Assembly: GCA_017545485.1 (NCBI GenBank)
Contig: JAFWMY010000014.1
Span: forward strand, 1 to 64,000
DNA length: 64,000 nucleotides
From: Candidatus Saccharimonadota bacterium
GTDB taxonomy: Bacteria; Patescibacteriota; Saccharimonadia; Saccharimonadales; Saccharimonadaceae
Direction: 5' to 3'
Shown here: positions 29,902 to 60,251 of the stretch, in pieces
How positions within the stretch are numbered: the first letter of the stretch is position 1
How the letters are laid out: every line of letters starts with the position of its first letter
Notes under the pieces: generated by a model
Told to the model about the DNA's origin: nothing
The model's input: only the letters and a program-made list of their open reading frames with translations
The model's database searches: none
Program-made: the position numbers and the translations under genes

Positions 29902-31329
29902 ATGCATTTTAAGACTATTTTCAAATCCCTAAAAAACAAAGACATGTTGAAACGAGTATTAATTATACTCGGTATTATTGTTGCCTATCGTTTGTTAGCG
30001 CAAATTCCAGTGCCGATGGGTGATGCCTCTACTTTTAGGGAAGCAGTCTCTAATTTAATGAGTAAGTCTGACTTTTCTTCTTTTCTCAATTTGATTTCTG
30101 GTGGTGGGCTAGCCTCTTTTAGCATTATTCTAGTAGGCTTATCACCGTATATTACTGGTTCTATCGTAGTTCAATTGTTAACTAAAGCTATTCCGTCACT
30201 TGAGGAATTATCAAATGATGGTGAAACTGGACGACGAAAGATTAATCAATGGACCAGAATGCTCACTGTGCCTTTGGCTATTGTACAGTCTATTGCTTAT
30301 ATTTTTATTCTTTACCAGTCTACACTTTCTGCGAATATTGCCAGTGAGTTTACGCCAACTATTGGTGATTGGGCATTGTCTGTAACTGCTATGACAGCTG
30401 GTTCGGTAATCTTGATGTGGCTTGGCGAATTAATCACTGAACAAGGCGTGGGTAATGGTATTTCTACTTTGATTTTCGCTTCCATTATTTCACAATTACC
30501 GACTACGATGGCATCACTTGGTAATGCTCTATTTGATACAAGCCAAGGAAGCTTAAGTTTATTTGGTTGGTTTGAGTTACCTGTTAACCCAACGGTATTT
30601 TGGATAATCCTCGGTTTTAGTATAGCGATGATTGTGGTAATTTACTTCTTGGTTAAACTTAATGAAGCCCAAAGAATTATTACTATTAATTATGCGAAAC
30701 GTGTGCATGGTAATTCTTCTTATGGTGGAATTAAATCTATTTTACCTATAAAGCTAATTGCTGCAGGTGTAATTCCGGTAATTTTTGCGACTGCATTTTT
30801 GTCTTTGCCTGCGCTCATTGGCCAGGTTATTACTACTATTGATTCTGGAAATGAATTCGGGGCAACTTTGGTTTCGGTATTTTCGGCCCCTTCGGCTAAT
30901 AATTATGCCACAATGTATCCGAATGGTATTACTGGCCAATGGTTTGTTTATCCGGCACTTTACTTTATTCTAGTGTTCATGTTTACTTATTTCTATACTT
31001 CTATTATTTTCAATACTAAAGAAATTGCAGATAATTTGCAAAAACAAGGTGGGTTTATTGAAGGCGTTCGCCCTGGTATAGCTACTTCGCGATATCTATC
31101 CAAGGTCGTTAACCACTTGGATTTGTTTGGTGCGTTTTCCTTAGGGCTAATTGCAATGTTGCCGTTTATCACTGATTATATCTTTATTGTCTTGACCGGT
31201 GCTCCAATTGGTCTTTCAATTTCTGGTACTGGGCTTCTTATCGTAGTTACGGTGGCGTTAGAGAATCTGAGGTCGGTGGATTCTAGAGCTCTAATGATAA
31301 CTTACGACGATTTTAAAGATGAGTCTTAA
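29902..31329 (+). CDS. secY: Protein translocase channel SecY
   Basis: Ten-helix channel of the Sec translocon. The 475-residue sequence has the conserved plug region (LNLISGGGLASFSIILVGLSPYITGSIV) after TM1, the TM2 signature ending in IVVQLL, and the cytoplasmic loop arginines around GFIEGVRPG that bind SecA or ribosomes. It follows rpoBC and precedes a sortase and infA. The usual spc-operon neighbours (rplO upstream; adk and map downstream) are absent here. Its 3' end overlaps the sortase gene by 11 bases. Confidence 0.97.
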   Translation: MHFKTIFKSLKNKDMLKRVLIILGIIVAYRLLAQIPVPMGDASTFREAVSNLMSKSDFSSFLNLISGGGLASFSIILVGLSPYITGSIVVQLLTKAIPSLEELSNDGETGRRKINQWTRMLTVPLAIVQSIAYIFILYQSTLSANIASEFTPTIGDWALSVTAMTAGSVILMWLGELITEQGVGNGISTLIFASIISQLPTTMASLGNALFDTSQGSLSLFGWFELPVNPTVFWIILGFSIAMIVVIYFLVKLNEAQRIITINYAKRVHGNSSYGGIKSILPIKLIAAGVIPVIFATAFLSLPALIGQVITTIDSGNEFGATLVSVFSAPSANNYATMYPNGITGQWFVYPALYFILVFMFTYFYTSIIFNTKEIADNLQKQGGFIEGVRPGIATSRYLSKVVNHLDLFGAFSLGLIAMLPFITDYIFIVLTGAPIGLSISGTGLLIVVTVALENLRSVDSRALMITYDDFKDES

Positions 31330-32017
31330 TATTAAACTTGGTTGGCGAAGAATAATAAAATGGTCACTTTGGGCAATTATTGGCGTTTTATTGTTGATTT
31401 TCTTGATTAGAGTAATAAGTTATGAAAACTATTATTATAATTCAATGGAAGGGAGCGAAAGGGATATTGCCGGTGATATTGGCGCTATCTCAACCGACGA
31501 AGAACTAATTGAAGAAAAACCTGAAGAATCAGAAGTTCGTGAGTATACTGTGGCCGCTGATCGCCCGCGATATCTGACGATTGAAAGGCTAGGCATACGT
31601 AACGCTAGAGTGCTTGCTATGGGGGTAAATAAGAAAGGTGAGCTGGATACTCCTAGAAATATTTTTGACGTCGGTTGGTATGAAAAGTCTGGAAAACCGG
31701 GTCAAGGCGGTACCCTTGTGATTGATGGTCATAATGGTGGGCCACACGTGCATGGTGTATTTAAAGATTTACCTGTTCTTTCCAATGGAGATACTATTCA
31801 AGTAGAAAGAGGAGACGGTGCAGTTTATAAATATAGTGTGGTTGAAAATAAATCCATTCCTTTGGCTGAGGCTGATTCATATATGTCAATTGCTTTTAAG
31901 AGCCCGGTTAAAGGCGAAGAATCTATTACTTTGATTTCTTGTACAGGCGAGTGGTCACAAAAGAGGGGAACTTATCTTTCGCGACAGTTTACAAGAGCTA
32001 TACTTGTGGAAGTCTAA
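31319..32017 (+). CDS. Sortase (membrane-anchored cysteine transpeptidase)
   Basis: Sortases cut a sorting signal on exported proteins and attach them to the cell wall or to pilin subunits. The 232-residue protein has an N-terminal TM helix (about 11-33), an acidic linker and a sortase beta-barrel. The catalytic triad can be read as His138 (VIDGHNGG), Cys208 (TLISCTG, the TLxTC motif) and Arg226 (FTRAIL). The class cannot be assigned firmly. It overlaps secY by 11 bases, so it is co-transcribed with it, in the place where adk and map normally lie. Confidence 0.9.
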   Translation: MSLNIKLGWRRIIKWSLWAIIGVLLLIFLIRVISYENYYYNSMEGSERDIAGDIGAISTDEELIEEKPEESEVREYTVAADRPRYLTIERLGIRNARVLAMGVNKKGELDTPRNIFDVGWYEKSGKPGQGGTLVIDGHNGGPHVHGVFKDLPVLSNGDTIQVERGDGAVYKYSVVENKSIPLAEADSYMSIAFKSPVKGEESITLISCTGEWSQKRGTYLSRQFTRAILVEV

Positions 32018-40249: not shown

Positions 40250-40278
40250 TTGACAAAAATTGCAAAGTGTGATATAAT
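40250..40278 (+). promoter_or_regulatory. Consensus promoter of the sortase / wall-enzyme cluster
   Basis: TTGACA at 40250-40255, 17-base spacer, TGA-TATAAT with the hexamer at 40273-40278. Both elements match consensus and the -10 is extended; it is among the strongest promoters in the window. Confidence 0.85.
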
Positions 40279-40308
40279 AAGGGTGTATTGGTCATAAATG
40301 GGAGTTTT

Positions 40309-40959
40309 ATGAGTAAGAGGATAATTTTAGTTATTTTAGCATTAATTGCTAGCGCATTGCTTCTTCGTCCACATTATATGTGGAAAAACGATGTAGTAGA
40401 TGCAATGGATTTTGGTGCAACTGAAGTAAAAACTGAAATTTCTGCTGCCGATAAGGCAAATATTGAAACGGTTGCCACCTCTTATAAACCAGTTTATACC
40501 TATAAGGCTACCTATAATTATAGTTCTGATAATACCGGTTATGGTAGCGTGGCTTATAATTCCATCTCTATTTTAGGTAAAAATATTGCTGTGCAAGATG
40601 TTGGTGATACTAGCGTAAATGCTGGTAACCATGTTAATAAATATGGTGCACGTTTCTATTATGGCCATAATTCTGGAGCAGTTTTTGGTGGATTACCTAA
40701 TCTTGGCGTTGGTAGTACCTTTACGATTACCTATGGTGGGGTCGTTCGTACCTATAGAGTAGCTAAGACTATGATTTTTGAGAAAAATGTCTCTAATGGT
40801 CGCTTACAGCTTAATGGCGAAGGTAACTATATGAAAAGCGTAGCTGGTGCTGTGAGTGGCGGTGTACAATATGATGTTTCATTAATGACCTGTTATGGGA
40901 CTTCCTATGGTAACGGTGATGCCTCCCATAGGTTTGTGATTTTTGCTAATGCTATATAA
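40309..40959 (+). CDS. Sortase-family protein with N-terminal membrane anchor
   Basis: The 216-residue product has an N-terminal hydrophobic helix (about 4-20) and a sortase-like beta-barrel. The triad can be read as His120 (FYYGHNSGAVFGGL), Cys195 (SLMTCYG) and Arg208 (SHRFVIF). It is diverged from the sortase at 31319 and may belong to another class. I choose the ATG at 40309, with GGGAG at 40300-40304, over an in-frame TTG at 40288. It heads a group with the wall enzyme at 40990 and the membrane protein at 42867. Confidence 0.82.
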   Translation: MSKRIILVILALIASALLLRPHYMWKNDVVDAMDFGATEVKTEISAADKANIETVATSYKPVYTYKATYNYSSDNTGYGSVAYNSISILGKNIAVQDVGDTSVNAGNHVNKYGARFYYGHNSGAVFGGLPNLGVGSTFTITYGGVVRTYRVAKTMIFEKNVSNGRLQLNGEGNYMKSVAGAVSGGVQYDVSLMTCYGTSYGNGDASHRFVIFANAI

Positions 40960-40974
40960 GTTTTTTGGCAAATG

Positions 40975-40983
40975 TGATATCAT
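40975..40983 (+). promoter_or_regulatory. Extended -10 of the three-domain wall enzyme gene
   Basis: TGA-TATCAT, hexamer at 40978-40983, six bases before the ATG at 40990. Confidence 0.5.
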
Positions 40984-40989
40984 GGTGGT

Positions 40990-42870
40990 ATGGTGATTTC
41001 ACATATAAAGAAACGCTTTTTAGTATTTATTTCCCTTATCCTTGCGTTTTTTCCTGTTTGTAATGCTTTTGGAACGGGTCTAAATCAGTCAACACTACAG
41101 TTTTATTCACAAAATAATATTTTCTTCTATGATCCTACTGCTGGTTGTAATACTACTACTGTTCAGCCAGTTTTAGGTAAAAATGTAACTTGGATTGGCG
41201 ATTCTTATTCTGTCGCTTCTGAATTGAATGGTTTAATATCTGGTAAACTACCTGGAGTTGATTTAGGAGAATACAGCAAAGACAATGAACAGCCAGCTGG
41301 GTCTTATATTAAGGTTAGTAAAGGAGTTAGTAGTTCTGATACTAATAATTTAGGTGGGATAGAAATTCTAGAGGATATTGTCAATAAAGGTGAACTGAGA
41401 CCATATTTGGTTTTTGCTTTAGGCACAAACAATGGTATTACAGATAGTCAAGTTGATAAAATTATGAGTTTAGCCGGTAATGAGACGAATGTTGTTTTCG
41501 TCTCGCTCTATATGACTGCTCCGAGTACTTATATTGAATCCAGCAATGATGTTTTACAAAAAGCTAGCAAAAAATATAGCAATGTAAGAATTGCGGATTG
41601 GGCGGCAGTCGCAAAAGATGAATACTATAGTTCTGATTCTTCCGGGGTGCACCCTTATGGTGGTCTTGACGAATGGGTAGATGTTATTTATAATGCATTA
41701 CTTTCGTTTAAAAAAGGTACTGATGGTACAAATATTGTTTATAATCAAAACTATGCTGGTGAGACAGTTTGGACAGATGAGCAGTTAGATGCTATAAAAG
41801 CTAACCAATCTATATATGAAAAGGCACAAGAAGAATATGGTATTCCGTGGCAAGCGATAGCAACTATGCACAGTTTAGAGACGGGGCTCGCTCGTTCTAA
41901 CCCGGCAAATGGTCAGGGAATTTATCAACTTTACTCTTATACCGTCGGTGGAACTAATTCTAACGCTTTTTTGCCAGCTGGCCCGGTGGATGAAGCTGAA
42001 TTTGAACGACAGACTTTGATTGCAGCTCAGCAAATGAAGTCAATGATTGAATCGCAAGGGTTAAGTGTTGATTCTAATGATGGGATTAAATCTCTGTTAT
42101 TCCAATACAACGGAAAAGCTCCAGAGTATATTGATAAGGCATTAGCATTAGGGTTTTCTCAAGCAGAAGCTGAAATTGGAGAGGGCTCGCCTTATGTAAT
42201 GAACCGTTATGATGCCAGGCGCGATCCTAATAGCTCAAATATGGATCCCGCATGGCCAGGTCGGTATGTTGCGGACGGAGTCTATAAAAACGATGAAGTG
42301 CAGTACGATTTTGGTGGTTTCGTAAAATATATTGCATTAGTAGGTTCTTCTGACAATGGAAATATTTGTGTATCTGAGAGTGCTGGTGGGAGCATGGATC
42401 TAAATGCATCAGCAATTGAATTAGCCTGGCCAGAAGCTGAACAGCAAAGATCATCTTCGGAACCAAAACCTGAGTACGTTGAAGCTATGAAATCAACACA
42501 TATTTGGGCGGAAGCTGATCCAAACAATGATGGCATTTGGGATGCTGCTCCTCGCAGGATGGGGATGAGCTGTGACATGTTTGTTGCGACCGTCGTACGA
42601 TACTCTGGCGTTGATCCAGACTTCCCGTATTATCTTGGTGGAGAAAAAGATCATTTAGCAAGTTCAGATTTGTGGGAAGAATTATACATAACTGACTCTT
42701 CGCAATATAAAGCAGGTGATATTAGGATTGAATATGATGGTGGGCATATAACTATGGTCGTAGAAATAGATGGTGAGCTGAAGATTGCCTCTGCTTCAGC
42801 ATTTGAGAGATTTGGCGATATTGGTTCATTTTATACTAATGGTAGTTTAACTTATAGGTTTAAGTCATGA
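40990..42870 (+). CDS. Secreted three-domain cell-wall enzyme: SGNH esterase, lysozyme-like and NlpC/P60- or CHAP-like domains
   Basis: A signal peptide (about 1-26) is followed by three modules in 626 residues. Residues 60-240 look like an SGNH hydrolase: GDSYS (Ser72), GTNNG (145-149) and D...H (His221). Residues 270-400 resemble a lysozyme-like transglycosylase or glucosaminidase core, with Glu297 in ATMHSLETGLA and the GQGIYQL segment. Residues 500-626 resemble a cysteine amidase/peptidase, with Cys528 (GMSCDMFVATVVRYSG) and His586 (DGGHITMVVEI). Together they could remove wall O-acetyl groups, cut glycan strands and cut peptides. The target wall, own or host, is unknown. It overlaps the next gene by four bases. 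Confidence 0.78.
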   Translation: MVISHIKKRFLVFISLILAFFPVCNAFGTGLNQSTLQFYSQNNIFFYDPTAGCNTTTVQPVLGKNVTWIGDSYSVASELNGLISGKLPGVDLGEYSKDNEQPAGSYIKVSKGVSSSDTNNLGGIEILEDIVNKGELRPYLVFALGTNNGITDSQVDKIMSLAGNETNVVFVSLYMTAPSTYIESSNDVLQKASKKYSNVRIADWAAVAKDEYYSSDSSGVHPYGGLDEWVDVIYNALLSFKKGTDGTNIVYNQNYAGETVWTDEQLDAIKANQSIYEKAQEEYGIPWQAIATMHSLETGLARSNPANGQGIYQLYSYTVGGTNSNAFLPAGPVDEAEFERQTLIAAQQMKSMIESQGLSVDSNDGIKSLLFQYNGKAPEYIDKALALGFSQAEAEIGEGSPYVMNRYDARRDPNSSNMDPAWPGRYVADGVYKNDEVQYDFGGFVKYIALVGSSDNGNICVSESAGGSMDLNASAIELAWPEAEQQRSSSEPKPEYVEAMKSTHIWAEADPNNDGIWDAAPRRMGMSCDMFVATVVRYSGVDPDFPYYLGGEKDHLASSDLWEELYITDSSQYKAGDIRIEYDGGHITMVVEIDGELKIASASAFERFGDIGSFYTNGSLTYRFKS

Positions 42871-43523
42871 AAAAGGTATTTTATTTCTTTATAAGACATC
42901 CGTATATATTGTTAACAATGATTTTGATTGTCATATTGACTATTGTCTTGGTTGTTATTTCGGTGCGTAGATTATATTCTGGTTCGTTGCGAGTTGTAGT
43001 TGCTCCTTCAACTGCCGATGTTTTTGTAAACAATCAATTATTTAAAAATGGAGAGTACGAGGGCTTAAGGATTGGCACAGTGCATGTTGATATCGTATCG
43101 GAAGGGTTCGAATCTGAAAGCTTTGATTTAGAATTATTGCCTGATGAAACAGCTGTAATTTATAGGTGTTTGGCGTCTGACGACGATTCTTTAAAACAAA
43201 ACGACGATTATGAAGCACATTGCGCTTTGGTTAATGAATATTATGGTGAAATTGAAAAAAATAAATTTTTACGTAAGTTTCCGATTTCAAATGATATTCC
43301 TATAGTTGTAGAGCAATATTATGATAACTATACAATATATATTTCTTATAGAATTGATTTAGGTCAATATAAAGGGTGTAAGCAAGAAGCTTGTTTGAAG
43401 ATTACCGATATCAGTGGCGGGAACTATGAGCGTGCGTTAGAAAATATACGTTCACGAGGTTATGATCCTGATGATTATGAAATTATTTATGAGGATTACA
43501 GCCAAAAGGGTCATGCTGGATAA
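42867..43523 (+). CDS. Membrane-anchored protein with PEGA-like domain
   Basis: The 218-residue protein has an N-terminal TM helix (about 13-34). Residues 38-97 resemble a PEGA domain (SLRVVVAPSTADVFVNNQLF ... GTVHVDIVSEGFES), a small beta domain found in surface proteins. The C-terminal 100 residues are unassigned and contain four cysteines. Its ATG overlaps the stop of the wall enzyme (ATGA), so the two are translated together and probably act together outside the membrane. Confidence 0.72.
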   Translation: MKKVFYFFIRHPYILLTMILIVILTIVLVVISVRRLYSGSLRVVVAPSTADVFVNNQLFKNGEYEGLRIGTVHVDIVSEGFESESFDLELLPDETAVIYRCLASDDDSLKQNDDYEAHCALVNEYYGEIEKNKFLRKFPISNDIPIVVEQYYDNYTIYISYRIDLGQYKGCKQEACLKITDISGGNYERALENIRSRGYDPDDYEIIYEDYSQKGHAG

Positions 43524-49623: not shown

Positions 49624-52600
49624 ATGCGGTTAGCTAAACGATATAAGGAGGTTTTCTGCGTATTCTGTTTGGCTGTGATTGCTGGTATTTTTGTGAATTC
49701 TAATTCTGTGTTTGGCATTGCGAAACAGAGTACTATTTCGGTTTCTTTGCAATCTGGTACTTTAGCTTTGCAATTAGCACCTACTCCAGAAGGCGTATTC
49801 GGCGAATCTTCAAGCGCAACTATTTCTGTAACGACAGATAATTATACCGGTTATAATTTATCTCTTGTTTCTAGTAGTGGAACTAGCTTAGTAAACGCTA
49901 ATGATGTTGAGGTTGAATCAATTTCTTCTAATGTTACGGCTCAAGCGTTTGCTACTAACTCCGCTTATAATAACAAATGGGGTTTTAAACCAAGTCAATA
50001 TGTTTCTAGTTCTGGCGGAGTTGATACTGTTGTTAATAATACTGATTTTGTGCCTGCTCCTTCTGGTGACGGATTGATGATTGATAAGACTTCTGCTGCA
50101 AATAGTGTAGCAAATACGTATTCTCTTTCGTTTGGTGCTCGGGCCGATACTACTTTGCCTGCTGGATCTTATTCTGGCACTTACGTTTTAGTTGCTATTG
50201 CTAATTCTATTGTATTTAATGTCACTTATGATGATAATACTACTGACGTCGTTACAAATATGCCGACTCCAAATCCTCAAGTAACATCCATTGATGGTGG
50301 TACTCCGGTTGCAGATAGCTATGTGACGCTTTCCGATGCGGTGCCAGTGCGCAACGAGAAAAAATTTGCCGGCTGGTGTGATGTTGCTACGACTCCTGAT
50401 TCTACAACAGGTGACGATACTTGTTCTGGTACTCTTTATCAGGCAAGTGATAATTTGCCAGTTGATCAGACGGCTGGGCCGAATATTACTTTATATGCTG
50501 TTTGGGTAGATACCTTGTTCCCAATTGTTTGGAACCAAATGGGAGCTTGCACGTTTAATGGAGCAACAAATGGTAATATTACTGGTTCAGAGTGTGAAGA
50601 CTATTGGGATGTTAGATTTATTGATACTGAAGTGCCGCTATATAGTCAAGCTAATTTCAGTAAAGATTATGAAATTCATTTTACGATTGATCATTATCTT
50701 CCTAGCGAGCAGGTGGATTATTATGGATCTGAGGATAATGGTCAACAGACTTTCGTAAATGATAAGCTTGGTTCTAACGCTGGTGACAAAAAAGCTCCTG
50801 GTGTCGTCGTAAGGCGTAATGGTGGCAGTAATATAGATATTAATTCCAAATATAGTGATGCCCAAATAAGTGCTCCGCATAATTATCAACAAGTCAGTGA
50901 TGTTTCCGTCTTCAGGCTAGATGGCACTATGTATTATAGTTTGAATGGTGGTCCGCTGATTTTCCTCCAAAATCTCCCATCAAATTATAGCCAGTTCTTT
51001 GGTCTTCATACTTGGTTTGGTGCTTATCCAAGAGATGACTGCACTGGCGATGATTATGTCTGTACTAGTGCTAAACGTATTTTGCAGGGCACTTTATCTA
51101 ATATGTATATTAGGCTCGGCGAGTATTCTGATGACGACGTTCATACCATTAACTTCAAAAAGAATGATGGCACGACTGCTAATGAAACGACTTATTTAAT
51201 TAAAGATGGTGGCTCAATTACTACTTTGCCTTCCGCCCCAACTTATACTAACCACATATTCCAGGGTTGGTTTACGGCGCAAACTGGTGGTACTGAAGTA
51301 ACTACTTCTACAGTTCCGACTGCTTCGACAGATTATTATGCTCATTGGCTGGGGACAGTGGCAATTGCAGATATTACTACGACTCAAATTGCTCTTCAGC
51401 CTGGTAATTCAGAAACTATAATTATCACGAATAGTAGTGAACTCGAACCATATGAATTTAGCTCTAGTAATCCTAGCGTTGCTACGGTTAATCAGAATAC
51501 TGGTGAAGTTACGGCTGTGACAGCCGGCACGACTACTATTACAATTACTGGTACGATTTCTGGGGAAACTAAGACTGTTCCTGTAACAGTAGCTGGACAG
51601 ACATATAATGTTTATTTTGACTCGCAAGGCGGTTCTGCTGTAAGTCCAAACCCTGTAGAGGTAGGCGATGGCGGCATGATTAATCCTTTGCCTACTTCTA
51701 TCAAGGCAAACAGCGAACTTGAGGGTTGGTACACTGAGCCAAATGGTGGTGGAACTAAGTTAACGACTGCCATTGTATTTGTCTCGAATACTCCGAAACA
51801 ATACTATGCAAATTGGGTAGAACAGCATTATGTTTGTAAGCCAGCTACATCACTTCATGTTGAACCATGTACGAGAACCAGCGCTGGGTGTTCTGCGGCC
51901 GGTTATACTAACAAAGATATTACTTATGGTTCGCTTATTCAGCAGGGTGCAACTTCCTTAGTTGCCGGCAATGCTATGACTTGTGATATTAATGCAGATG
52001 GTTACTTTGATGAGGCGGATGAGAGATTCTATTATTTGACCGATGTGGGCGATAATGCTGCATTGATTTACTATAAGAGTATTAATAATAACGAAAACCT
52101 TTGGAACGATGCTTTGACGTTGCTTCCAACTTCAAGTACGACTGGTTGGACTAACCCTCATCTAGTAACATTTGGCACTGGTGATTACAATGGTAAAGTC
52201 GCAAGATATATGAGCTATAACGAGGCAAGAGCAACTTGTAATAATACTACAAATAACTTTGGTACTGGCGGGAAGTGTGTTTATATTCTTGAACAGTCCA
52301 ATTTTGCCTACACTGATATTCGTGATGGCTATTGGCTTGGAAGTACAAATAATTCAAGAGTCCATACGTCTAGTCGTGGTATTACTTCCAATTCTACTAG
52401 GAATGGTGTACGTCCTGTGATTGAGGTGCCGATGGACTATGTATCTCTTCACGTTCAAGCGCAGTTTGACATTACATTTGATCCACATAATGGTGACTCT
52501 ACCACTACTGTCACAATTGACGAGGGAGATTCACTTAGTACAAATATTCCAGCCAATCCAACTTATACTGATCATTTATTCCAAGGTTGGTTTACAGCAG

Positions 52601-55600
52601 CGACTGGTGGCGAACAGATTAATTCCAGCACTGTTCCGTCTGGAGGTACTACTTATCATGCACAGTGGCTAAAAACTGTAGCTTTGGCAGAGCTTCAGCG
52701 TGATACGATTGCGGTTGAGCCAAGTGGAACTGCAAATATCGTAGTGACCAACTCCTCTGAACTTGAACCTTATACATTTACATCAAATAATTCTTCAATT
52801 GCTACAGTTGACTCGGCGGGTGAAATAACTGGTGTCACTAATGGTACTACTACAATCACGATGACTGGCACCACTTCCGGCGCTACGAAGACTATTACTG
52901 TAAATGTCACGACATTACTCCCAGTAACTCAGGCAATTATCGGAAATACCGATCTTACCACAACGGTGGGTGGACAAACTACTGTCATAGTTACTAACTC
53001 TGCCGAACTTGAGCCATACACCTTCTCTTCCAGTAACACTTCGATTGCAACTGTAGATGCTGCCGGCGTAATTACTGGTGTGGGTTCTGGGACTACGAAT
53101 ATCATAATGACTGGTTCGAACTCTGGCCTTACTAAGACGCTTGAGGTAGAAATCACCGCTGCGCCCGTGACTATGTATAATGTTACCTTTAATCCGAACG
53201 GCGGTTCGTTCAGTGACCCAAGTGATGCATCAAAACAGGTAGAAGACGGTACTGCAGTTGGAGCCTTACCGACTCCGACTAAGGCTAATCATATGTTCTT
53301 TGGCTGGTACAAGGATGACGGCACGTTCTACCAGGAAGTTTATCCAGAGGAAATCATCGATGACGATGTGACTTATTATGCGAAGTGGGTTGAGGATACT
53401 GCTAGTTTTCCGATTGTCTGGGCAGAAACTAATGCTTGTAACTTCAATGGAACGTCTAATCTAACTGGCGACTATTGCCTTGAGGACGCTGTATCTGGCA
53501 ACCCAATTGATAAGACGAAGTATTACATTGATACTGCCGTCCAGCTATTTACGCAGGCGAATTTCCAGAAAGACTTTGAAGTTGGGCTCAATATCGTGTC
53601 ATATGATGGTAGCAGTTCAGTAAATCAAGCTACATTTGTAACTTCTAAGGCAGAGAACTTGTCTGGTTGGCCAGGATTTACTCTCAGAAGAAGCGGTTCC
53701 AGCGCTAACCTTGAGCTGACTGAGAGGTTTAGCATGAATTCTCAAGCTGTTTCCGCACCGCTTGTTGCTATAAGTAGTGTAAATCAGGTAAGAATTGCAA
53801 GAATTGGTGAAAAGATATACTACTCATGGAATGGTGCAGCCTATACGCTCCTACAAGATATTTCCGCAAATACTACGCGCTTTGATACTAATGTGTGGTT
53901 CGGCGCTACATTAAACTCCGCCGGTACTGGCTCGCAGCGACCGATTTATGCAACACTTACTGATATGTATGTCAGACTTGGTGTACCTACTGATTACGTA
54001 ATTGAACTTGATGTTAATGATGGTTCGATGAGCGAGCCAAGTAGCTTTACAGTTATAATTGGCGATGAACTAGGGACCTTGCCGACTCCAACTCCGCCAA
54101 ACGAAAACTATACCTTTGTTGGATGGTTTGATGAATCGGTTTCGCCAGCCGTCCAGGTTACTTCTACCACAAGGCCAGATGGTAATAAGAAATATATAGC
54201 TCATTATTCATACGATTCGTCTGATGAGCCGGTGATATTTAATATAGCAAATAATGCTCTTCAAGGATATCAGACCCTCATTAACAGTTGGGTGCCAAGT
54301 CCAATCAATATTACTATATTTAATGAAGACTCACCTATTAACGATTCAACCTGGGGCGACACAAGTGAACTTAGCGAAAAACAATTCTGGGAAGGTATAA
54401 AAGGCAATTTTGAAAATAATCTATGTTCAATACCTAGTTATGGTGATGCCACCAAACCTTTAAGTTCACTTACCGCTTGGGGAAATGGTTCGAATGATTG
54501 TTCAAAACCAAAGGCTTATGACACCAAAATTGGCGCAGCACTTAATGTCTACCTTGACGATGAAAATGGTGCTCAAGTTGCATATGCTAACGCAACGAAT
54601 GGCATCATACATAACATGATTCCTGGCCAGACATATTATTGGGAGAAAGCAGATGATAGCACGGTCTATGGCTATGTGACAGCTACCTCTGTAAATGGTA
54701 GAAGACCAATTGAGCTTAGCGCAAATCGCAATACTCGTGACCTTGGTGGTTTGCCAGTGACCTATACAGATAGTAACAATCAGACTGTAACAGGTACACT
54801 GGCTTATGGTAGATTATTCCGCGGTGAAAGACTATGGAATACTCCAGCAACCGAACTATATAATCTAGGCATCAATAAACAGTATGATGTAGGCGATCCT
54901 ACCGAATATGCGAATGATACGAAACTCAGTGATTATAAATGGGATCCGGTAATTCATTACAATTTTGACTATCATTCTGGGGATGAAGATAATGCTTCAT
55001 CTAATTATATGAAGGCCTGGACGGCTGTAACTGATATCATGACAGATATCACAAGTGCTAATAATCCAAAGAATATTTATTTCCATTGTCGTGTTGGCGC
55101 TGATCGTACTGGTACAACAGCATATCTGCTTGAAGGTTTGCTCGGTGTACCCGATGAGGCAAGGTATGAGGAATATGAGCTTACAAATCTGTCTGGTTTT
55201 TATGATAGAACTAGATATTATAAGCAGAAAACTAGCACTAATAACTTGAAGTTTGTCTTCATGATGGAATATGTAAAAACTAATGCAGATATTCTTAACT
55301 GGTATATGAGTAACCCAGACTCTGACATGAATTTGGTACAAGCCTTTAGGTCGGCGATGACGGTGCTATCTTCTTCACAAAATTCTTCTCAATCTAATTC
55401 TCAATCTAATTCTCAGAGTTTTAATACAAATACAGCGAACAGGAGTAATGCTGCCATATCTGATGATATGAGCAATTCCGACAGTTCCAAAGATGCTTAC
55501 TCTGGGTACGAAGCCCCTCTTGGCGTAACTACGAGATACAACAACACGAGCAACGATACTAATTCGGAGTTCTCCCCTGCGGGTCTAATCGCATTGGCTG

Positions 55601-55662
55601 TCGTTGCGGTTGCTTCTACTGCTATGACTTCTTATGCTTTGGCTAAAGAAGACGAAGAATAA
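49624..55662 (+). CDS. Giant surface protein with InlB-type repeats, Big_2 domains and a tyrosine-phosphatase domain
   Basis: 2012 residues. A signal peptide (about 1-31) leads the protein. Six InlB B-repeat-like units (consensus F-x-x-N-G-G ... G-W-Y ... Y-x-A-x-W) lie near 196, 506, 660, 946, 1184 and 1458. Two related domains of about 200 residues at 299-503 and 1262-1457 look LamG/concanavalin-like. Three Big_2 Ig-like domains lie at about 578-660, 1019-1095 and 1100-1180. Residues 1700-1930 match a Y_phosphatase3-type domain: NRNTRDLGG, GRLFRGERL and the Cx5R loop HCRVGADRTG (Cys1822, Arg1828). A Ser/Asn/Gln-rich linker and a C-terminal TM helix (about 1983-2003) with an acidic tail follow. 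It is an exported adhesin-like protein; the phosphatase substrate is unknown. Confidence 0.88.
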   Translation: MRLAKRYKEVFCVFCLAVIAGIFVNSNSVFGIAKQSTISVSLQSGTLALQLAPTPEGVFGESSSATISVTTDNYTGYNLSLVSSSGTSLVNANDVEVESISSNVTAQAFATNSAYNNKWGFKPSQYVSSSGGVDTVVNNTDFVPAPSGDGLMIDKTSAANSVANTYSLSFGARADTTLPAGSYSGTYVLVAIANSIVFNVTYDDNTTDVVTNMPTPNPQVTSIDGGTPVADSYVTLSDAVPVRNEKKFAGWCDVATTPDSTTGDDTCSGTLYQASDNLPVDQTAGPNITLYAVWVDTLFPIVWNQMGACTFNGATNGNITGSECEDYWDVRFIDTEVPLYSQANFSKDYEIHFTIDHYLPSEQVDYYGSEDNGQQTFVNDKLGSNAGDKKAPGVVVRRNGGSNIDINSKYSDAQISAPHNYQQVSDVSVFRLDGTMYYSLNGGPLIFLQNLPSNYSQFFGLHTWFGAYPRDDCTGDDYVCTSAKRILQGTLSNMYIRLGEYSDDDVHTINFKKNDGTTANETTYLIKDGGSITTLPSAPTYTNHIFQGWFTAQTGGTEVTTSTVPTASTDYYAHWLGTVAIADITTTQIALQPGNSETIIITNSSELEPYEFSSSNPSVATVNQNTGEVTAVTAGTTTITITGTISGETKTVPVTVAGQTYNVYFDSQGGSAVSPNPVEVGDGGMINPLPTSIKANSELEGWYTEPNGGGTKLTTAIVFVSNTPKQYYANWVEQHYVCKPATSLHVEPCTRTSAGCSAAGYTNKDITYGSLIQQGATSLVAGNAMTCDINADGYFDEADERFYYLTDVGDNAALIYYKSINNNENLWNDALTLLPTSSTTGWTNPHLVTFGTGDYNGKVARYMSYNEARATCNNTTNNFGTGGKCVYILEQSNFAYTDIRDGYWLGSTNNSRVHTSSRGITSNSTRNGVRPVIEVPMDYVSLHVQAQFDITFDPHNGDSTTTVTIDEGDSLSTNIPANPTYTDHLFQGWFTAATGGEQINSSTVPSGGTTYHAQWLKTVALAELQRDTIAVEPSGTANIVVTNSSELEPYTFTSNNSSIATVDSAGEITGVTNGTTTITMTGTTSGATKTITVNVTTLLPVTQAIIGNTDLTTTVGGQTTVIVTNSAELEPYTFSSSNTSIATVDAAGVITGVGSGTTNIIMTGSNSGLTKTLEVEITAAPVTMYNVTFNPNGGSFSDPSDASKQVEDGTAVGALPTPTKANHMFFGWYKDDGTFYQEVYPEEIIDDDVTYYAKWVEDTASFPIVWAETNACNFNGTSNLTGDYCLEDAVSGNPIDKTKYYIDTAVQLFTQANFQKDFEVGLNIVSYDGSSSVNQATFVTSKAENLSGWPGFTLRRSGSSANLELTERFSMNSQAVSAPLVAISSVNQVRIARIGEKIYYSWNGAAYTLLQDISANTTRFDTNVWFGATLNSAGTGSQRPIYATLTDMYVRLGVPTDYVIELDVNDGSMSEPSSFTVIIGDELGTLPTPTPPNENYTFVGWFDESVSPAVQVTSTTRPDGNKKYIAHYSYDSSDEPVIFNIANNALQGYQTLINSWVPSPINITIFNEDSPINDSTWGDTSELSEKQFWEGIKGNFENNLCSIPSYGDATKPLSSLTAWGNGSNDCSKPKAYDTKIGAALNVYLDDENGAQVAYANATNGIIHNMIPGQTYYWEKADDSTVYGYVTATSVNGRRPIELSANRNTRDLGGLPVTYTDSNNQTVTGTLAYGRLFRGERLWNTPATELYNLGINKQYDVGDPTEYANDTKLSDYKWDPVIHYNFDYHSGDEDNASSNYMKAWTAVTDIMTDITSANNPKNIYFHCRVGADRTGTTAYLLEGLLGVPDEARYEEYELTNLSGFYDRTRYYKQKTSTNNLKFVFMMEYVKTNADILNWYMSNPDSDMNLVQAFRSAMTVLSSSQNSSQSNSQSNSQSFNTNTANRSNAAISDDMSNSDSSKDAYSGYEAPLGVTTRYNNTSNDTNSEFSPAGLIALAVVAVASTAMTSYALAKEDEE

Positions 55663-59585: not shown

Positions 59586-60251
59586 AATATAACCGCGGGT
59601 TTTGGCATGTCTAAAACCCGCTTTTTTTGTATATTCTATTATTTCTTGATGTTGGCAGGGGTCAGATTCTAAAATTAGATATTTTGTTTGCCTGTCTGCT
59701 GTTTGTTTAACTAACTCCTTTATGAGAGCGAGGCCATGGTCTTCAGCATAAAGGGCTATTCTCGGCTCGTAGCTTAATGATTCTTTGTTTAGCCAGTTCC
59801 AATCTTCGTCAACATAAGGCAAATTTGCAACTATTACATCAGGGGTAAACTTGACATTATCAAGTAAGTGTGATATAATGAAATTTATAGATGCGCTATG
59901 TTTTGTAGCGTTTTTTTGTGCTATTTGAAGGGCATTTTCTGAAATATCGCTGGCGTATACTTTCGCATCTCGGAGTTCTTTTTTAATTGTTATGGCAATA
60001 CAGCCAGAACCAGTACCGACGTCTAGAATAATTGGATTATCTGGTAACTGTTTTTTTGGCGCTTTTACTCCCGGAAGGTAAGATTTGCCTGCAAGGGATA
60101 AAACCATATCTATTATTTGTTCTGTTTCTGGACGAGGGATTAAAACATCTGGCGTAACGATATAATCTCGGCCATAGAAATCTTGAACACCTCTTATATA
60201 CGCCTCTGGCATACTTGGTTGGGTGCTTTTATTTTTGGAGGTCACGCTCAT
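59565..60251 (-). CDS. prmC: Release factor glutamine methyltransferase
   Basis: Methylates the Gln of the GGQ motif in release factors. The SAM-binding motif is [13 protein letters not shown]. The catalytic NPPY motif appears as NLPY ([13 protein letters not shown]), a known variant, and the substrate region LIPRPETEQ is present. The N-terminal helical domain is cut to about 30 residues compared with about 80 in E. coli PrmC (228 versus about 277 residues). It overlaps prfA by 23 bases at its start. Confidence 0.92.
59595..59628 (+). terminator. htrA terminator located inside prmC
   Basis: GCGGGTTTT (59595-59603) pairs with AAAACCCGC (59613-59621), followed by seven T. It lies entirely within the antisense coding sequence of prmC. 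Confidence 0.85.

Follow-up and report, generated by a model that had tools for sequence, protein, structure and literature searches.

A three-domain wall enzyme and its PEGA-like membrane partner as a candidate wall-opening unit for the type IV secretion system of Saccharibacteria

We analysed a stretch of 64,000 nucleotides from Candidatus Saccharimonadota bacterium (GenBank assembly GCA_017545485.1, contig JAFWMY010000014.1, positions 1 to 64,000 of the forward strand; hereafter the window), in which a sortase-like gene is followed by the gene of a secreted enzyme with three predicted wall-directed domains and by that of a PEGA-like membrane protein, here called the partner. We favour, at a probability of about 0.5, a reading in which enzyme and partner form a VirB1/CwlT-type wall-opening unit that serves the Saccharibacteria type IV secretion system (T4SS) and is encoded away from the T4SS operon, behind the sortase gene. 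The enzyme would be exported by Sec; its SGNH domain would most likely strip O-acetyl groups from N-acetylmuramic acid, its lysozyme-like domain would cut the glycan at Glu297, and its cysteine domain (Cys528/His586) would cut the stem peptide. The resulting local hole would let the T4SS cross the cell's own wall and perhaps that of a partner cell too, while the PEGA protein may anchor or position the enzyme at the membrane and is a candidate stand-in for VirB8. Kinship with Saccharibacteria suggests that the cell itself leads an epibiotic life on another bacterium.

Because many relatives keep the same pair inside the T4SS operon, directly behind virB4 or virB6, the pair in the window is probably a T4SS wall opener that has moved beside a sortase gene. 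The neighbours of the relatives' hydrolases include VirB4 (with a TraG P-loop), PrgI and large VirB6-like proteins (the names VirB6 and TraC were given by position and length to proteins without a Pfam match), and in 33 of the 64 same-genus genomes with a hydrolase match such a gene follows virB4 on the same strand at a distance of no more than 8 kb. A search with a profile of the lysozyme-like (GH) domain found 85 loci, 80 of which were kept as named loci; by their titles 72 belong to Saccharibacteria, Saccharimonadia or TM7, and in two the hidden Markov model missed the GH gene. VirB4 is present in 37 of these loci and an adjacent partner in 47, and the hydrolase itself also carries a cysteine or CHAP-type domain in 57 and an SGNH domain in 17. 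Many contigs are shared between the named loci and the same-genus genomes, which makes the two sets dependent on each other. The full domain order of the window enzyme (SGNH-GH-CYS) stands behind virB4 in two loci (L207 and L215) and behind virB6 in a third (L227).

The genome's own virB4 lies on another contig (G000:C20:48757, the window enzyme being on C1), is thus not linked to the enzyme, and has dnaJ and no hydrolase behind it. Across the genus, a copy elsewhere in the genome was found in 21 of the 23 genomes that lack a T4SS-linked hydrolase, versus 15 of the 49 that have one (Fisher p 2e-6). This count covers 78 of the 82 same-genus genomes with virB4: 49 with a hydrolase behind it, 23 without and 6 set aside as contig-edge or unclear cases. 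Four further genomes with virB4 matches (G027, G050, G054 and G068) were left unclassified, and 11 were entered as present from search tables.

The enzyme and its partner also travel together. Among 149 genomes, 84 partner matches were judged to be near full length or C-terminal, and 65 of them lie on the same strand as a cysteine-domain hydrolase and no more than 4.5 kb from it, where about 0.8 would be expected at random. Since so many partner matches adjoin such a hydrolase, we take the two genes to be a conserved unit; among the named loci the pair mostly occurs without a sortase. The model of the partner (mean predicted local distance difference test score, pLDDT, 93.6; alignment of 25 rows) has a transmembrane helix at about residues 12-36, a beta domain at 38-105, a long helix and a C-terminal alpha/beta domain. 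The beta domain matches transthyretin-like and CNA-B-like chains (Z 5-7), and in the partner family Pfam PEGA (PF08308) is matched at E<=1 by 21 of 25 members, with 3.4e-6 as the best value; the window partner itself, labelled PEGA-like in a preliminary description of this locus, has no Pfam PEGA match. For the C-terminal alpha/beta domain, which the fold searches barely covered, no match was found.

Several observations weigh against the T4SS reading. A further hydrolase is encoded on the same contig as the genome's own virB4 (C20:77689), and 15 of the 49 genomes with a T4SS-linked hydrolase also have one elsewhere. When the comparison was repeated on a VirB4 tree (61 rows), four independent pairs were left on supported branches, of which on average 2.8 are opposite, as the complementarity predicts, and 0 the same, which is not significant; kinship could therefore also have produced the complementarity, since the Fisher test ignores it and the supported pairs are so few. 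In the GH tree the window clade of six rows (support 100/98) is nested among mostly T4SS-linked rows, but the nearest kin of the window enzyme besides the one in L195 (L196-L198 and L244) are not T4SS-linked, so that the unit may long since have ceased to serve the T4SS. Finally, no VirB8 fold (NTF2-like) was listed for the partner: Foldseek and VIA matched the PEGA part only and barely covered the C-terminal part, a result that is compatible with a VirB8-like fold there.

The structure model of the enzyme (mean pLDDT 83.3, alignment of 38 rows) comprises three domains. The preliminary description had proposed a secreted chain of SGNH, lysozyme-like and cysteine domains that are directed at the wall and had singled out Ser72, His221, Glu297, Cys528 and His586. 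All five residues are present, the catalytic positions are conserved among relatives, and the chain belongs to the unit with the partner. Structure prediction gave three domains, and fold search matched the SGNH domain to OatA and the glycan domain weakly to lytic transglycosylases and lysozyme. The start of the protein resembles a signal peptide and no anchor was flagged. Pfam and NCBIfam gave no family above cut-off for the enzyme, nor did NCBIfam for the sortase-like protein, which has no Pfam match; the assignments of both proteins thus rest on alignments and models. Glu297 is invariant (23/23 in the domain profile alignment) and lies near the end of the model's helix 287-298. In the lysozyme-like fold the catalytic Glu sits at the end of the core helix. 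For this domain Foldseek returned MltE (E 0.046), MltF and goose lysozyme (E 0.12), all weakly, Pfam SLT appeared only at E 0.041-0.062, and nothing in Pfam or PHROGs exceeded the cut-off. In the cysteine domain, Cys528 is found in 52/52 and His586 in 44/52 rows of the domain profile alignment, and a weak profile match to NlpC/P60 chains of the PDB (E 1.4e-4) is centred on the His region. A phage origin of the enzyme was considered and rejected: no phage record matched it, and no viral contig coded for a relative found with the GH profile. A single-protein search of the genome contigs with the enzyme gave no match. Two related architectures were seen along the way, a hydrolase in which one GH domain is joined to three cysteine domains in tandem (L083:4328-7498) and, on C20 of the window's own genome, a paralogue of the window enzyme that combines SGNH, Phage_lysozyme2, cysteine and CHAP-like domains (L100:6675-9503), followed by two small membrane proteins.

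The SGNH model superimposes on the catalytic domains of OatA from Streptococcus pneumoniae (Z 19.0, root-mean-square deviation 2.2 over 157 residues) and Staphylococcus aureus (Z 18.2, 2.1 over 147 residues); Z is 18.1-19.0 for OatA domains and 14.8 for the next family, and a profile search returned OatA chains at E 6.9e-18 and 2.5e-17. Ser72 and Asn147 are present in 31 and 30 of the 32 rows of the domain profile alignment, and alignment A6 has Ser72 in 25/25, Asn147 in 24/25 and His221 in 22/25 rows; in the domain profile alignment, which is the looser of the two, His221 is kept in 18/31. Block V reads D216-S-S-G-V-H221 and is longer than an Asp placed three residues before the His, with an Asp or Glu aligned to D216 in 23/25. 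Seven genomes of the genus (L277-L283) encode true AT3-SGNH fusions of ordinary OatA appearance. One enzyme (G042, L072:8699-10426) retains a decayed SGNH domain without the catalytic Ser (GDRN in its place) and without the His motif; because both regions are lost there, SGNH activity seems dispensable in some members.

Which way this domain would drive its reaction is a separate matter. Excerpts of PMC9487903 and PMC5697884 describe OatA as adding acetyl groups from its AT3 domain, the donor, and PatB as pairing with an MBOAT protein. SGNH hydrolases occur in 32 of 90 same-genus genomes, and because 22 of these 32 have neither an AT3 nor an MBOAT match, our better guess is that the hydrolase-fused SGNH would remove O-acetyl groups before the other domains cut. 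Stand-alone AT3 proteins are not enriched (8/32 genomes with SGNH hydrolases versus 18/58 others, the fusion-only and stand-alone classes being set from open-frame lengths). Dependence of the hydrolase-fused SGNH on AT3 was accordingly dropped, as no association was seen in the 90 genomes. The opposite direction, with an OatA-like O-acetyltransferase that protects wall material instead of an esterase, seems to us rather unlikely. It draws on OatA being the clear top match, so that the closest solved relative is an acetyltransferase, on the stand-alone AT3 protein that this genome does encode, and on a Val at the Block II place of the window enzyme (alignments judged by eye), a residue that favours transfer in OatA according to an excerpt of PMC5697884. 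A close relative (L111) lacks this Val, however, most SGNH-hydrolase genomes have no recognizable donor, as counted above, and the AT3-SGNH fusions of the genus all keep the short Asp-x-x-His where the window SGNH has a longer loop.

Two further readings of the pair give up any present tie to the T4SS. The enzyme and partner might form an autolysin that remodels the cell's own wall in growth, division or budding, the T4SS-linked relatives being a specialised branch. A muramidase joined to NlpC/P60 is a layout common among autolysins, the window clade sits away from the T4SS, and genomes can hold several paralogues (8 matches in G061). Set against the frequency of T4SS linkage across the family, and against copies elsewhere being common exactly where the T4SS lacks a hydrolase, these points leave the autolysin doubtful, if deserving of some weight. 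The enzyme might instead be a lysin that acts alone and is secreted against the wall of a host, for whose opening the preliminary description had named it a candidate tool, or against that of rivals. Such a role would suit a protein with a signal-peptide-like start, no flagged anchor or sorting signal and three complementary predicted wall activities, from a family in which domains are variably shuffled. We consider it unlikely, as no host-specific binding domain was identified and an enzyme so constantly paired with a membrane protein would be expected to act close to the membrane of its producer.

That description had also joined sortase, enzyme and PEGA protein into one surface module, and this part of it has been weakened. 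The sortase-like gene as such stands up well: its best start is the ATG at 40309, preceded by GGGAG, and H119, C194 (in a TLxTC-like motif) and R207 (numbering from residue 2) are invariant in 21/21 homologues, 9 of 21 family members matching Pfam Sortase at E<=1 (best 2.1e-11). All 20 sortase loci that were fetched from relatives contain glyA and 19 contain thyA, and the genes downstream of the sortase are of CotH type in 7, GH25 in 5, choloylglycine-hydrolase type in 5 and SGNH/GH in 1 (G038), the first three kinds having been named from a Pfam run on one protein of each. The sortase thus occupies a syntenic locus throughout the genus, and its downstream genes vary. Because they vary, we rejected the sortase as organising partner of the pair, and its link to the pair is local to this arrangement: only 1 of the 80 named hydrolase loci has a sortase. 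The same order does recur in L195, from a Saccharibacteria metagenome-assembled genome of sheep ileum (thyA-HD on one strand; sortase, SGNH-GH-CYS and PEGA genes on the other), and in G038, where it is split over two contigs. Loci L213 and L214 carry the SGNH-GH-CYS and PEGA pair near thyA with no sortase seen, at a separate position in the tree. It is therefore very unlikely, in our judgement, that the sortase serves the same function by fixing the enzyme, the partner or some further protein to the wall, even with the short intergenic gaps, the single strong promoter and the identical gene order of L195 and G038 in its favour: the neighbours of the sortase differ from those of the window in 19 of 20 relatives, and a scan of C-termini flagged no sorting signal in the enzyme or the PEGA partner. 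In the fetched genome stretches, to which the sorting-motif scan was confined, one motif-bearing protein was found (L142) and none in the module. The genome has other sortases, namely a clear Pfam sortase in the window (E 2.5e-16; 31319-32017, + strand, overlapping the end of secY) and a third sortase-like gene near 75 kb of G000:C1 (L153). In G038, the PEGA gene is separated from trpS by pieces of a P-type ATPase and a repeat-type surface protein (L071:5300-9763).

The features of the locus are collected in the table. As first described, a consensus promoter precedes the sortase-like gene, and the membrane-protein gene is coupled to the enzyme gene through an ATGA overlap. A TG precedes the -10 element, and the window holds 3 perfect promoters with spacers of 16-18, against 0.2 expected from a first-order Markov simulation; two of them, this one and one at 59851, have AAGTGTGATATAAT in common at the -10 end. 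Further downstream (49624-55662, + strand) the window encodes a 2012-aa protein with five Listeria-Bacteroides repeats, Big_2, a tyrosine-phosphatase-family domain and a C-terminal hydrophobic stretch.

Features of the sortase, enzyme and PEGA locus (positions in the window)
Feature	Position	Strand	Remark
Sigma-70-type promoter TTGACA-17-TATAAT, extended -10	40250..40278	+	consensus match 12/12
Sortase-like protein, 216 aa, N-terminal membrane anchor	40309..40959	+	weak class D only
Secreted three-domain wall enzyme, 626 aa	40990..42870	+	predicted
SGNH domain, OatA-type, residues 63-237; Ser72, Asn147, His221	41176..41700	+	
Lysozyme / lytic-transglycosylase-like domain, residues 252-452; Glu297	41743..42345	+	
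NlpC/P60-like cysteine domain, residues 467-615; Cys528, His586	42388..42834	+	
PEGA-like membrane partner, 218 aa	42867..43523	+	

The hydrolase family and its partner are candidates for two gaps in the Saccharibacteria system. Excerpts of PMC12102498 state that in Patescibacteria VirB1 homologues are few and mostly lie away from virB4, and that VirB8 is almost missing or has another protein in its place; that the T4SS is essential for growth of Saccharibacteria on the host is stated in an excerpt of PMC10633639, and that the Patescibacteria T4SS is unusual in being needed for host growth in one of PMC12857230. We found no description of the hydrolase-partner family in the open-access literature. 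The genes offer a concrete starting point for studying how a cell of this kind breaches a Gram-positive wall, and the fusion of an OatA-type domain with wall hydrolases is an unusual reuse of the OatA fold. More broadly, and tentatively, the Saccharibacteria T4SS may draw on exchangeable two-gene cassettes, each a shuffled hydrolase with a PEGA partner that replaces VirB8, which could leave the operon and act in trans, with domains suited to the wall chemistry; the unit in the window would be one that has left.

Compared with known proteins, the pair combines familiar parts in a new setting. The partner family resembles PEGA-domain proteins in its Pfam matches and its transthyretin/CNA-B-like beta fold, and the window partner differs from them by its second, C-terminal alpha/beta domain. 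OatA shares the fold and the Ser/Asn/His blocks and is the best match in sequence and structure to the window SGNH; its SGNH domain has a shorter Asp-His loop in Block V and is fused to an AT3 membrane domain, whereas that of the window is fused to wall hydrolases with no AT3 in the 626 aa. The cysteine domain is like NlpC/P60 peptidases in its Cys, its His and its profile match, and unlike them in the weakness of that match. The VirB1-type hydrolases of Gram-positive conjugation systems (CwlT, PrgK, TraG of pIP501 and TgaA) have a lysozyme- or transglycosylase-like domain followed by a cysteine-peptidase domain, as does the window enzyme (its muramidase match being weak), and, like them, the relatives of the window enzyme are often linked to virB4. 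The window enzyme differs in its extra N-terminal OatA-type SGNH domain, its PEGA partner and its place outside the T4SS operon, and its sequence is too distant from theirs for Pfam or NCBIfam. In Southlakia epibionticum, lysozyme and peptidase genes downstream of virB4 are cited as essential in an excerpt of PMC12102498; in relative place and domain types they resemble the T4SS-linked members described here.

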